In this document: positions 11,569 to 31,091 of the stretch, one piece after another
Numbering within the stretch: position 1 is the first letter of the stretch
Layout of the letters: each line of letters starts with the position of its first letter
IMG/VR virus record: IMGVR_UViG_3300020159_000747
Coordinates: 1 to 56,449 of that record
Strand: one strand, 5' to 3'
From: a virus
DNA length: 56,449 bases
Position numbers and translations under genes: made by a program
Notes under the pieces: generated by a model
Databases searched by the model: none
What the model saw: the letters and a program-made list of their open reading frames with translations, nothing else
Told to the model about the DNA's origin: nothing

Positions 11569-13035
11569 CTATTCTTCTATAGCGCCCTTGATTATTTCTG
11601 TGGTTTGGGCTTCGTTGAACCCGCCATTTGGTAACTCTTTTAGGGCTTGAGCCTTGTCTCCGAAGATAGAACTTAGCACACCAGCAGAGCCTTGTCGCTC
11701 TACAGTCATGCGAATAAACTCACGTGAGTCGTCCAACTCTTTGGTAGTTTTAATCAATTTAAATAGGCGGTCAATTTCCTGAGAAACGTTAGGGTCAGCG
11801 TATCCGCCGTTCATTTCTTCAGCAAAACGCATAAAAGCAACGCGTTGTCCCTGCATTTCTATAATTGCATTAATCAAACTCTTAAGTTGGTCTTTAGTCT
11901 TTACTTCTATTGGTAACTTAAAAGCACATACAGATTGAGGCTTGAAAGCGGGGCAGTTAGTGGCTACAAAACAAGTGTCGCATGCACGAAGTGAGGTCTG
12001 TTGGGAGTTGATTGAGGTGACATCTTTGATAGTCCCATCCTCATCAATTTCGGTCTTTGTATTAAATCCGAAGACTGGAAGATTGCCCATTTCAGCAGGG
12101 TTTCGCGGCTCAAGTTTCCGCATATCTACCCCCCTATTATCATATACGGCAGGAGCACTTTCCCCACTTTGCTCCACTTCACTCCCCTCACTGTTATCAT
12201 ATAACATTGGGTCTTCTGGATTACCGTTCATCTTGTTCATCCTTACTTCAAACTGTTCGTATGACCACACGGCTAACTTAGCAACTTCTTGTGGGTCGTC
12301 CTCAAGAATCTTATCTATATCCAAGCCAGCCTTTTCATAGGTCGCCTTGTATCTAGCACGTGCTTGGTCTTTCATTTTCTTTGGGTAGCGGACAAGCCTA
12401 GTGCCATCCCAAATAATAGTCTCACCATGCATCATTGGTGATAGCCACGATAAGGTGCTTGCGGAGTCAAATGGGACTTGACGCAGGTTATCTGGCTTGG
12501 CGCATCCTAACGCATGCCAGCGTGTCCCCTGACGCTTGCTATGGATACGAGTAGCGCTTGCCAACTGGGTCTCTGTCTCGATGGCGTCGCCTGGAATAGC
12601 AATATCTAGGTAATACTCAACTAGGTTCTTTAGGCCTTCGTAACCTGTCTGTGGCTGCCATACAGGCACGAACTTAGCAGGTGGGACCTCTGACCACACA
12701 TCCTTGCGTTGTTGGTCTATGAACTCAGGGTCAATGCCGTAGCCGTTAATCTCATAAAAGGTGGTAAGCCTGTCCATATTTACAGCCACGAAATGCTCGT
12801 AACCAGCTGCAAACTCTTCTAGCTCAGCTGGGCCCAGCTTCAGCGTCTTGGGCAGGCCAGGGGATACATAAATATAGAAATCTTTATTAAAGTAGTTTTC
12901 TAATAGATACTCTTTGGTCTTTGGCAGGCCACGTTGCACCAGGCGGTAGTAGCTCACTCCCACATGGTTGGCTGTGGTTTCCTCAAGTATTACTCTATTT
13001 GAAGGAACCTCAGCACCTAAGTAAATAATCTTCAT
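11569..13035 (-). CDS. tRNA-guanine transglycosylase / DpdA-like TIM-barrel protein (488 aa)
   Basis: The middle of the protein has the layout of the TGT superfamily: RWHALGCAK (residues 172-180) followed by VPFDSASTLSWL (187-198), comparable to the HGLG...FxSxDSxSW region of DpdA-like phage proteins. A VNMDRL segment near 85-90 could provide an upstream substrate-binding Asp. A second Cys-rich zone near residues 350-375 (CDTCF, NCPAF) may bind metal. DpdA enzymes exchange guanine for 7-deazaguanines in DNA. No preQ0 synthesis gene is in the window, so substrate and activity are open. The assignment is from pattern only. Confidence 0.5.
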   Translation of the reverse strand: MKIIYLGAEVPSNRVILEETTANHVGVSYYRLVQRGLPKTKEYLLENYFNKDFYIYVSPGLPKTLKLGPAELEEFAAGYEHFVAVNMDRLTTFYEINGYGIDPEFIDQQRKDVWSEVPPAKFVPVWQPQTGYEGLKNLVEYYLDIAIPGDAIETETQLASATRIHSKRQGTRWHALGCAKPDNLRQVPFDSASTLSWLSPMMHGETIIWDGTRLVRYPKKMKDQARARYKATYEKAGLDIDKILEDDPQEVAKLAVWSYEQFEVRMNKMNGNPEDPMLYDNSEGSEVEQSGESAPAVYDNRGVDMRKLEPRNPAEMGNLPVFGFNTKTEIDEDGTIKDVTSINSQQTSLRACDTCFVATNCPAFKPQSVCAFKLPIEVKTKDQLKSLINAIIEMQGQRVAFMRFAEEMNGGYADPNVSQEIDRLFKLIKTTKELDDSREFIRMTVERQGSAGVLSSIFGDKAQALKELPNGGFNEAQTTEIIKGAIEE

Positions 13036-13142
13036 TCACGGCCCCAGGTATGGCCACACTTGGAACATAACCAGGCTTTATCTCCAACATATTCCAGAGT
13101 TTTGGAATCGCATCCTTGTGGACACTTTGGTGTGTCTGTCAT
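13032..13142 (-). CDS. Zinc-ribbon mini-protein (36 aa)
   Basis: Starts at 13142 overlapping the previous stop, and its TGA overlaps the next ATG (ATGA at both ends). Begins MTDTPKCPQGCDSKTLEYVG and carries CSKCGHTW, forming a Cx3C...CxxC ribbon. Function unknown, probably a nucleic-acid or protein-binding ribbon. Confidence 0.65.
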   Translation of the reverse strand: MTDTPKCPQGCDSKTLEYVGDKAWLCSKCGHTWGRE

Positions 13143-13600
13143 ATCCGTGGGTCCTCCTTATACGCGGCGTTCTGTGAGTCTATCTCTTCTACAATCTTTT
13201 TCCAAGACTTGACACCCTTTCGGCTATCAGGCCTGAACTCTTCCCTAATGTAGGTAGGAGCCATAAATACTAGGGTAGTAATACCAACAGACAATAACTT
13301 AACAGTCAAGTCGGGGTCGGAAGTAATAACCAACTCCACTGGACCTTGGCTTTTAATCCACTCTACCAGTCTAAAGTCTGGGTCATCACCAAGTGCGGGG
13401 ACGTTGGATTTATCTACAACATCATCGATATTATTAATGCGTTGCTGACGAAGCCAGTGGTCTCCTTTTGTGACGTCATCACAAAGGATTAAAACACGGT
13501 TTTTTTCTTTAAGTGTTCTATATAAAGACATGCCGTCTTGAATAGGGCCACCAAGCCTAGTGTCTTTTAATACCCCGTCTAGAAAAACTAATATTGCCAC
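13139..13600 (-). CDS. HAD-like phage protein with degenerate motif I (153 aa)
   Basis: Begins MAILVFLDGVLKDT, which looks like a HAD motif I (DxDGV) whose nucleophilic first Asp is replaced by Phe. An ILCDD segment follows near residue 40, and a VITSDPDLTVKLLSVGI region near 92-107 resembles the HAD core. It is probably a non-catalytic or divergent HAD-fold protein. Coupled to the zinc-ribbon gene downstream. Confidence 0.5.
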   Translation of the reverse strand: MAILVFLDGVLKDTRLGGPIQDGMSLYRTLKEKNRVLILCDDVTKGDHWLRQQRINNIDDVVDKSNVPALGDDPDFRLVEWIKSQGPVELVITSDPDLTVKLLSVGITTLVFMAPTYIREEFRPDSRKGVKSWKKIVEEIDSQNAAYKEDPRI

Positions 13601-13612
13601 GTATATACCCTA

Positions 13613-14545
13613 TCAGTTGTAGTGTGTAGCTGCTCTCCGTATTAGAGTGCTAGTTGTTGGTAGTTCCATGCCGTATGTCTGTGCTTCAAATTCTTGTTTT
13701 GTTTTCTTAGAAATTTCTTTTAGTTCTTTTAGTGCTTGTACAACTCCGCTTGCTTTTCCTGACTGCCAGCGATAATTATATACATCACCGTAACCTTGTC
13801 CACTAGGGCTAAATGCGTGTTTTCTACCCTGGTGAATATCTTCAAACAACGCAGCTCCCTGGTCTACAGCTAACTTTAGTGCAGCTTCAGCATTGCGTCT
13901 AGCAACATCTGTAGAAGCAGAACCTATATTAGATAAAGCCTCTGAATACCTAGATAAAATATCTACAGCTAGGGACTTATCTTGAGCTACGCGTCGGTCC
14001 CAGATTTTATTGTTAGGCACAGCTCTAACTTCAGGCTGCACAGTCCAGTCATCAGTTGTCAGTGAGTAAGCTGCGTATGGCTTTATAGTACGGATATCGG
14101 ACTGAACATTAACATAGAATGTCAATTCAAATATATCCAGAAAGTTTCCAGTGTTAGGGTGCAATTCCTTATTAAAATCCTCATTAAACATCTGGGAAAT
14201 CTCGCGGTCGCTCAACCCTTTGTACTTTGGATTAGCTTGACGGAATGACAAGTAGTTGACGCCAATCAAACAATCAAGGTCTGCTGGCTTTCTTGCTGCT
14301 GACCATTGGTATGACACGGCTGAGCCAGCTAACCAAACATGGATATAGGATTCTGGGTTACTGTAGCGAGCGCGTAAATGCTCAAGAAGGATTCTATAAA
14401 TTAAAGAACGGATATGGGGAACAATCTTCCCATTTCTAAACAGACGAGGGTCCAACCCAGCACCTGGGGTGCTGAAGTAGGAAGTCTCGGAGGGCTCTAT
14501 GGTGACTGGCTTAGCCTGCTTCACCAGCTCGTCATAGAAGTTCAT
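13613..14545 (-). CDS. Nucleotidyltransferase-fold protein (310 aa)
   Basis: WLAGSAVSYQW (Gly74-Ser75) followed 14 residues later by DLDCLI (Asp89, Asp91) is the GS...DxD signature of the pol-beta/MNT nucleotidyltransferase superfamily, with a later acidic FELTFYVNV stretch as candidate third carboxylate. Substrate unknown: it could modify a tRNA, protein or small molecule. The C-terminal ~120 residues are helical. 12 bases separate it from the HAD-like gene downstream. Confidence 0.75.
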   Translation of the reverse strand: MNFYDELVKQAKPVTIEPSETSYFSTPGAGLDPRLFRNGKIVPHIRSLIYRILLEHLRARYSNPESYIHVWLAGSAVSYQWSAARKPADLDCLIGVNYLSFRQANPKYKGLSDREISQMFNEDFNKELHPNTGNFLDIFELTFYVNVQSDIRTIKPYAAYSLTTDDWTVQPEVRAVPNNKIWDRRVAQDKSLAVDILSRYSEALSNIGSASTDVARRNAEAALKLAVDQGAALFEDIHQGRKHAFSPSGQGYGDVYNYRWQSGKASGVVQALKELKEISKKTKQEFEAQTYGMELPTTSTLIRRAATHYN

Positions 14546-21715: not shown

Positions 21716-21882
21716 CCTTGGCCTCCCCAGCCTCCGCCTTTAAACTGCACTGATGGTGGTGTGTAAGACTTAATCATAAATTCTCCGCAACTTTCGCAGG
21801 TAGGGCGTTGTGTGGCATCAAATGCAAAGTGCATTTCTACTGTACGGTCACAGTTCATACATGTAAAATCATACTTTGGCAT
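21712..21882 (-). CDS. FmdB-like zinc-ribbon protein (56 aa)
   Basis: Begins MPKYDFTCMNCDRTVE with a second pair CESCG and the closing SVQFKGGGWGG, which matches the FmdB regulatory-protein family pattern (ribbon followed by FKGxGW). Family members are presumed transcription or translation regulators. ATGA overlap with the HslV-like gene suggests co-expression. Confidence 0.8.
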   Translation of the reverse strand: MPKYDFTCMNCDRTVEMHFAFDATQRPTCESCGEFMIKSYTPPSVQFKGGGWGGQG

Positions 21883-22433
21883 CAGCCTACCTTTTCTTGT
21901 TCTATTACGTGAAATGGCCCTGAGGTATAAGCGTCTAGTTTTTCTGCAATTTCTAATGCCTCTTCGGCTTTAGCACCAGCATGAAGCGCTCCTAAAGCAT
22001 ATGCTGAGCCATTACCTACGGCATATAACCCGTCTTGAGAACGAGTTACCGAAAGGTCATCACTAATATCAAAAATCTCACCGCCAACGGCAATGAGAAA
22101 ATGGAAACGCTGCTCGTTTGTGTTTTTATCGCGCTCTTCTTCAAAGTTATAGCCGTTATCTTTTAAACATTTACGTAAAGACGGAACAACTTTAGTAATG
22201 GCAAAATGATAGACGTCTTTTCTATGTGCTGCTGTTAGCTTAGGTGGGTTCCAAATGTGCTGTGCAATATCGCAAGGATTAACCTCACCAGAGCCAGCTA
22301 TAAGAAGGTCTCCACGTTGAGAAATTTTTACCATCTGGGAATGCCTTTGAATACGCCCATCAGGGTCGGTCACCTGACTGTCTGCACCTAATACGCATTT
22401 ATCTTCGTATTGAACACCAACAATTGTTGTCAT
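21882..22433 (-). CDS. HslV/proteasome-beta-like Ntn-hydrolase (183 aa)
   Basis: Begins MTTIVGV, so Met removal exposes a catalytic Thr as in HslV. GADSQVT gives the Asp at mature position 17, and VKI near residue 36 supplies the candidate Lys33. LIAGSGEV and YAVGNGSAYALGALHAG are the core strands and helix of the fold, ending SGPFHVIE. Length is that of HslV (about 175). It would form a barrel peptidase, but no HslU/ClpX-type unfoldase gene is near. It overlaps the RuvC gene by one base. Confidence 0.85.
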   Translation of the reverse strand: MTTIVGVQYEDKCVLGADSQVTDPDGRIQRHSQMVKISQRGDLLIAGSGEVNPCDIAQHIWNPPKLTAAHRKDVYHFAITKVVPSLRKCLKDNGYNFEEERDKNTNEQRFHFLIAVGGEIFDISDDLSVTRSQDGLYAVGNGSAYALGALHAGAKAEEALEIAEKLDAYTSGPFHVIEQEKVG

Positions 22434-30859: not shown

Positions 30860-30866
30860 TGTAAAG

Positions 30867-30937
30867 CTCCCACCCATGGATTCGAACCACGATAGACGCC
30901 TCCAGAGGGCGCCGTCCTGCCGTTAGACGAGGTGGGA
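30867..30937 (-). tRNA. tRNA-Gln (CTG)
   Basis: Acceptor TCCCACC/GGTGGGA is perfect, anticodon loop CTCTGGA reads CTG, and the T arm is CGTGG-TTCGAAT-CCATG. CCA is not encoded. Separated by 1 base from tRNA-Gly. Confidence 0.9.
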
Positions 30938-30938
30938 C

Positions 30939-31014
30939 TGGAGCGGTTGACGAGGCTCGAACTCGCGACCTGCACCTTGGCAAGGTGCCGCTCTACCAAC
31001 TGAGCTACAACCGC
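30939..31014 (-). tRNA. tRNA-Gly (GCC)
   Basis: Acceptor GCGGTTG/CAACCGC, D arm GCTC-AGTTGGTA-GAGC, anticodon loop TTGCCAA (GCC), T arm GCGAG-TTCGAGC-CTCGT, discriminator T followed by encoded CCA. Confidence 0.95.
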
Positions 31015-31018
31015 ATTG

Positions 31019-31091
31019 CTGCCCCACCTGGGCTCGAACCAGGGACCTAGCGATTAACAGTCGCTCGCTCTGCCAGCTGAGCTATAGGGCA
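31019..31091 (-). tRNA. tRNA-Asn (GTT)
   Basis: Acceptor TGCCCTA/TGGGGCA with one G-T pair, anticodon stem-loop AGCGA-CTGTTAA-TCGCT (GTT), T arm CCTGG-TTCGAGC-CCAGG. No CCA encoded. It begins directly after the helicase stop codon. Confidence 0.95.

Follow-up and report, generated by a model that had tools for sequence, protein, structure and literature searches.

In this study, a 56,449-base viral contig from IMG/VR, classed as linear and referred to here as the window, was analyzed around the open reading frame at 11569..13035 on the minus strand. The frame opens with ATG and encodes a protein of 488 aa, just as the initial annotation had it, and the two sequence blocks reported there were both located in the translation: HALG at residues 174-177 (12505-12516, minus) and FDSASTLSW at residues 189-197 (12445-12471, minus). 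From the reading frame itself, a match to PHROG 887 and identity to gp36 of Streptomyces phage BRock, the product is described as a DpdA-like protein of two domains. IMG/VR yielded more than 300 homologous stretches, and in comparisons with relatives the gene had an overall dN/dS of 0.04-0.12 (barrel, 0.03-0.11); this is therefore a real gene and not a chance ORF. The same values point to strong purifying selection, suggesting a maintained pseudoenzyme and no decaying gene.

The window carries genes for tail, baseplate and replication functions from a phage with a contractile tail; no match to the terminase large subunit (TerL) was found within its 56,449 bases. Relatives of the window reach 80-97 kb, so it is probably a fragment of a larger genome. 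In a linear 56 kb contig with no terminase match, missing genes prove little by themselves, and gene absences were therefore also checked in 12 relatives of 80-97 kb and in the complete Streptomyces phages BRock and GiJojo. Two conserved genes lie upstream on the same strand, at 13139-13600 and 13613-14545, and the synteny of both is kept from freshwater relatives to BRock. The product of 13613-14545 matched no Pfam or PHROG family; it carries a nucleotidyltransferase-like signature, GS...W..R-P-x-D-L-D, that is invariant throughout an alignment of 27 sequences, BRock gp39 among them. The N-terminus of the 13139-13600 product resembles the HAD-type LDGVL motif, without a catalytic Asp conserved across relatives. 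Elsewhere in the window, three tRNA genes (Gln-CTG, Gly-GCC and Asn-GTT; 30866-31091) lie next to a helicase gene, and a homolog of the HslV-family peptidase (21882-22433; PHROG 1040, E 8e-31) is encoded in the replication/recombination region.

The 488-aa protein matches PHROG 887 (queuine tRNA-ribosyltransferase) at E 2.2e-55. A Pfam search of the protein returned nothing significant, a sequence search of the PDB gave no match, and at E 0.1 the TGT profile PF01702 matched neither the window nor its relatives, while it did match control genomes. Full-length homologs occur in six Streptomyces phage records at 32-34% identity; among them, BRock gp36 and GiJojo gp181, annotated as queuine tRNA-ribosyltransferase, share the same two domains and the conserved neighbors. 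The link to experimentally studied DpdA runs through intermediate proteins. Bacteroides phage BS162P1 gp87 matches PHROG 887 and in turn matches phage DpdAs, for example those of R7M, RHEph04 and Vibrio phages, and a human-gut phage DpdA used as query matches both CAjan, whose DpdA role was proven by deletion (PMC6884629), and Streptomyces phage LuckySocke of the fused family. In hhalign, the family profile aligned to eight phage DpdAs at E 4e-10 over residues 74-272.

AlphaFold2 predicts an N-terminal TGT/DpdA-like barrel at residues 1-270 (12226..13035, minus), with alternating strands and helices and a pLDDT of about 73-93 per ten-residue block; beyond residue 270 the protein is poorly predicted. 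Structural matches in BFVD include queuine tRNA-ribosyltransferases from the phages Megan (Microbacterium), Sonali and Mufasa8 (Arthrobacter), and Bella96 (Mycobacterium). Against the PDB, Foldseek gave generic barrels only, none below E 1e-3, and the TGT assignment therefore rests on sequence profiles together with BFVD. Judged from these profiles and models, the TGT/DpdA ancestry is sound: the identity proposed in the initial annotation is upheld by PHROG 887, hhalign and the BFVD matches, and the structure prediction that it called for gave a barrel resembling the phage enzymes.

The nucleophile of TGT is Asp280, while Asp102 takes a proton from the incoming base (PMC6165067). By motif, their equivalents in phage DpdA lie in CDSSSW and DSG, respectively. 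A family alignment of 80 rows (77 distinct records, three contigs occurring twice) was compared with nine phage DpdAs. In FDSASTLSW (12445..12471, minus), the alignment places the nucleophile position at S193, four residues before the Trp (W-4). This column holds Asp in all nine DpdAs; in the family it is Ser in 71 rows, Ala in 4, His in 3 and Thr in 2, and never Asp. D190 was considered as the catalytic Asp and ruled out; it stands at W-7, three residues upstream of the W-4 position used by DpdA. Since the human-gut phage DpdA motif FDSVDSTTW has Asp at both W-7 and W-4, the register is fixed without gaps, and D190 is thus not catalytic. Position 190 also varies within the family (E/A/T/D/S/V/H/N).

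The first catalytic Asp is missing as well. All nine phage DpdAs have DSG, versus SPG in the window protein (S58-P59-G60; 12856..12864, minus). The DSG Asp column is H, Y or S in the window's clade, and D or E in sister lineages. On a tree of the barrel, this Asp was lost once, in a monophyletic clade of 47 tips that includes the window (support 0.988). On this tree, the nucleophile went first, in the ancestor shared by all fused members, and the DSG Asp later, in the window's clade. At a third conserved DpdA Asp position, Asp in 9/9 DpdAs and in 47/80 family rows, the window protein has N97 (12745..12747, minus). Other parts of the pocket are retained: H174 of HALG aligns with H196 of phage 9g DpdA and is His in 79 of the 80 family rows and in 9/9 DpdAs, and W197 is kept too. 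The phage DpdAs of 9g, CAjan, R7M and RHEph04 (PMC6884629) thus share with the window protein the barrel and its motifs, including this His and the conserved Trp; they have Asp in both DSG and CDSSSW and lack the Cys4 domain, whereas in the window protein the reverse holds.

The protein is very probably not a transglycosylase, and the 7-deazaguanine type of DNA modification that the initial annotation ascribed to it finds no support: the catalytic Asp pair, whose lack had been named there as evidence against the idea, is replaced by Ser193 and Ser58. The retained H174 and W197 may leave room for ligand binding or for a different chemistry. BRock and GiJojo resemble the window group in having neither preQ0 genes nor the nucleophile; their proteins keep the DSG Asp, which the window's clade has also lost. 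Because both lack the nucleophile, the transglycosylase annotation of BRock gp36 and GiJojo gp181 is, by sequence comparison, probably wrong in function.

The preQ0 supply genes were sought by family searches. FolE, QueD, radical-SAM (QueE) and TGT families were found in none of the window, the 12 relatives of 80-97 kb, BRock and GiJojo, and the result for QueC in this set was the same. BS162P1, by contrast, was positive for FolE, QueD and a radical-SAM gene in the same searches, and for QueC by hmmscan. The reported absence of folE, queC, queD and queE from the window is thereby confirmed, and looking for queuosine genes beyond it, in the long relatives and two complete phages, yielded none. 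preQ0-pathway genes lie near dpdA in 9g, RHEph04 and R7M. Such genes are carried by many, not all, DpdA phages; 76 phages have dpdA without them (PMC6884629).

The window contains neither GATC nor CCGG, where dinucleotide shuffles predict 143 and 102 occurrences, respectively. This absence had been observed correctly; its connection to base modification does not hold, since relatives with the same gene can be rich in both sites. For example, GATC and CCGG are abundant in locus L013, whose gene is 75% identical. Among about 100 related loci that bear the gene, some are wholly without GATC, CCGG, AGCT, CGCG, GGCC or TCGA, whereas in others these sites are as frequent as expected. Thus, avoidance tracks lineage or host and not the gene, and a tie between the two is ruled out. 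G-modified DNA needs no site removal, so avoidance is no pointer to base modification; the removal of sites, read from the sequence, suggests DNA that is not chemically shielded. In these freshwater phages (the window and loci L004-L187), all-or-none absence of 4-bp palindromes switches between close lineages, and many loci of 17-21 kb have none of a 4-bp palindrome where 40-80 are expected.

The second half of the protein is a C-terminal Cys4 and helical domain (residues 346-488; 11572..12000, minus), recognized from split homologs and from hhalign against annotated terminase small subunits (TerS). Its CX2CX5CX8C motif (C352, C355, C361 and C370; 11926..11982, minus) is a probable Zn or Fe-S site, and all 41 aligned sequences, the split Bacteroides-type homologs among them, have the four Cys. 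The model of this domain has a pLDDT of 56, too poor for fold assignment, and Pfam gave only non-significant matches to it. A stand-alone gene for the Cys4 domain immediately follows an intact dpdA in four loci, those of BS162P1, two IMG/VR contigs and a human-gut phage scaffold. queC lies upstream in all four split loci and a queE-like gene downstream in three of them, the order being queC - dpdA - Cys4 gene - queE-like. The two halves of the window protein are thus adjacent genes in BS162P1, gp87 and gp88, gp88 being the Cys4-domain homolog; unlike the window protein, gp87 has retained its catalytic Asp residues, and the phage also carries FolE, QueD, QueC and a radical-SAM gene. Since the complete pathway, a dpdA with its catalytic residues in place and an adjacent Cys4 gene occur together in BS162P1, the comparison indicates that these neighbors were fused and the chemistry lost. 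The dpdA at L091:3884-6082 (MT835482) has an intein-like insert right after the catalytic Asp motif (FFSSDS / TTWLGG), and the insert bears homing-endonuclease-like motifs.

The Cys4 domain resembles the C-terminal part of the annotated TerS of Tsukamurella and Gordonia phages (hhalign E 5e-6), a name that in these phages is the annotation of a gene directly upstream of TerL. The TerS of TIN2 (Tsukamurella) and of GMA7 and Monty (Gordonia) have the same CX2CX5CX8C spacing and following helices; they differ in that genomic position and in an N-terminal half that is not detectably DpdA-like, so that profile comparison does not support a DpdA barrel there. PHROG 6902, of small terminase type, matches the window protein at E 0.023 and that of BRock at 0.0064, and one BFVD match of the model was to the TerS of Gordonia phage Jumbo. 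The protein could then simply be a small terminase subunit encoded apart from TerL, a reading we regard as unlikely. The shared domain speaks for it, as does the TerS profile, which matches only this gene in 6/10 relatives and nothing in the other four; moreover, no annotated TerS lies near TerL in BRock or GiJojo. However, both in the relatives and in BRock, TerL lies tens of kb from the gene, so synteny lends no support to a packaging role, the Cys4 gene of BS162P1 adjoins dpdA far from the terminase match, and the TerS match is weak and confined to the C-terminal part.

The reading we favor, with moderate confidence, is that of a non-catalytic DNA-recognition protein, a pseudoenzyme derived from DpdA. 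It builds on the descent, the losses of catalytic residues and pathway, the fusion and the purifying selection that the sequence comparisons show. The N-terminal barrel originates from that of a phage DNA guanine transglycosylase, and the Cys4-helical domain joined to it is encoded in other phages by a separate gene next to a dpdA that looks active. The nucleophilic Asp was lost before the fused family diversified, the second catalytic Asp followed in the window's clade, and the preQ0 supply genes have gone from the phage group. The barrel may still hold DNA without chemistry, and the C-terminal domain may dock it to a partner. The packaging machinery is the leading candidate for this partner, because the domain is common to annotated TerS encoded beside TerL and the relatives have no other TerS-family match; it is also the weakest step of the proposed mechanism. 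That the DNA recognition would serve packaging is a possibility we hold only tentatively. It is likewise doubtful, if conceivable, that a DNA guanine transglycosylase was fused to the partner protein encoded beside it, lost its chemistry and was exapted as a small terminase, the DNA-recognizing subunit of packaging, by a widespread group of freshwater and Streptomyces phages.

The recognition protein has to be weighed against further readings. An enzyme with a new chemistry on DNA, tRNA or nucleotides is rather improbable. H174, E205, R216, Y217 and the RYPKKMKDQAR loop, through which it would act, are invariant or nearly so, and the strong purifying selection and the conserved neighbor with the nucleotidyltransferase-like signature are in its favor. 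Yet the window's clade retains no conserved Asp or Glu where transglycosylases have theirs, and invariant basic residues are equally consistent with nucleic-acid binding. There is a small chance that the protein is a non-catalytic subunit steering a host or other TGT/DpdA, as eukaryotic QTRT2 does for QTRT1. QTRT2 is a TGT paralog kept as a pseudoenzyme, inactive and with its catalytic Asp residues replaced (PMC6165067), and Bacteroides-type phages encode the Cys4 domain next to a dpdA that looks active. QTRT2 pairs with an active QTRT1, whereas the window's phage group encodes no active partner; the long relatives and complete Streptomyces phages have no second TGT-family gene, and the partner would therefore have to be a host protein. 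The passages of PMC6165067 used here also describe no Cys4-helical fusion for QTRT2. An active DpdA inserting host-derived preQ0 or a relative of it, as proposed for dpdA-only phages (group 3, Hutinet et al. 2019), is very improbable despite the DpdA homology in PHROG 887 and hhalign and the existence of singleton dpdA phages such as Salmonella phage 7-11 with trace dADG (PMC6884629), in view of the missing nucleophile in 80/80 family rows, the missing DSG Asp in the window's clade, the window's GATC/CCGG avoidance, which speaks against protected DNA, and the singleton DpdA of 7-11 itself, which unlike this family keeps both Asp residues (VLDNGAF, ADSS).

Hutinet et al. 2019 (PMC6884629) found the modification status of the 76 dpdA-only phages hard to predict and suggested that singleton DpdAs may have diverged functionally; phage Orion, of the dpdA-only group, had no detectable modification. 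The word Streptomyces is absent from the main text of that paper, and no description of a DpdA-Cys4 fusion or of Asp loss in this group was found in the literature searched. The fused family thus gives a sequence basis to the suggested divergence, in a group outside that main text.

In sum, phage genes named queuine tRNA-ribosyltransferase or DpdA are taken as a mark of modified DNA, and for this large, well-conserved family that reading is probably wrong. Inspection of two residues, the Asp at W-4 of the SSW motif and that of DSG, separates likely active from likely inactive members. In Bacteroides-type phages, where it adjoins an intact dpdA, the Cys4 partner domain may have a role in targeting DpdA. 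Considering that the apparently dead barrel is under strong selection, DNA recognition by DpdA could be tested apart from its chemistry in culturable Streptomyces phages.
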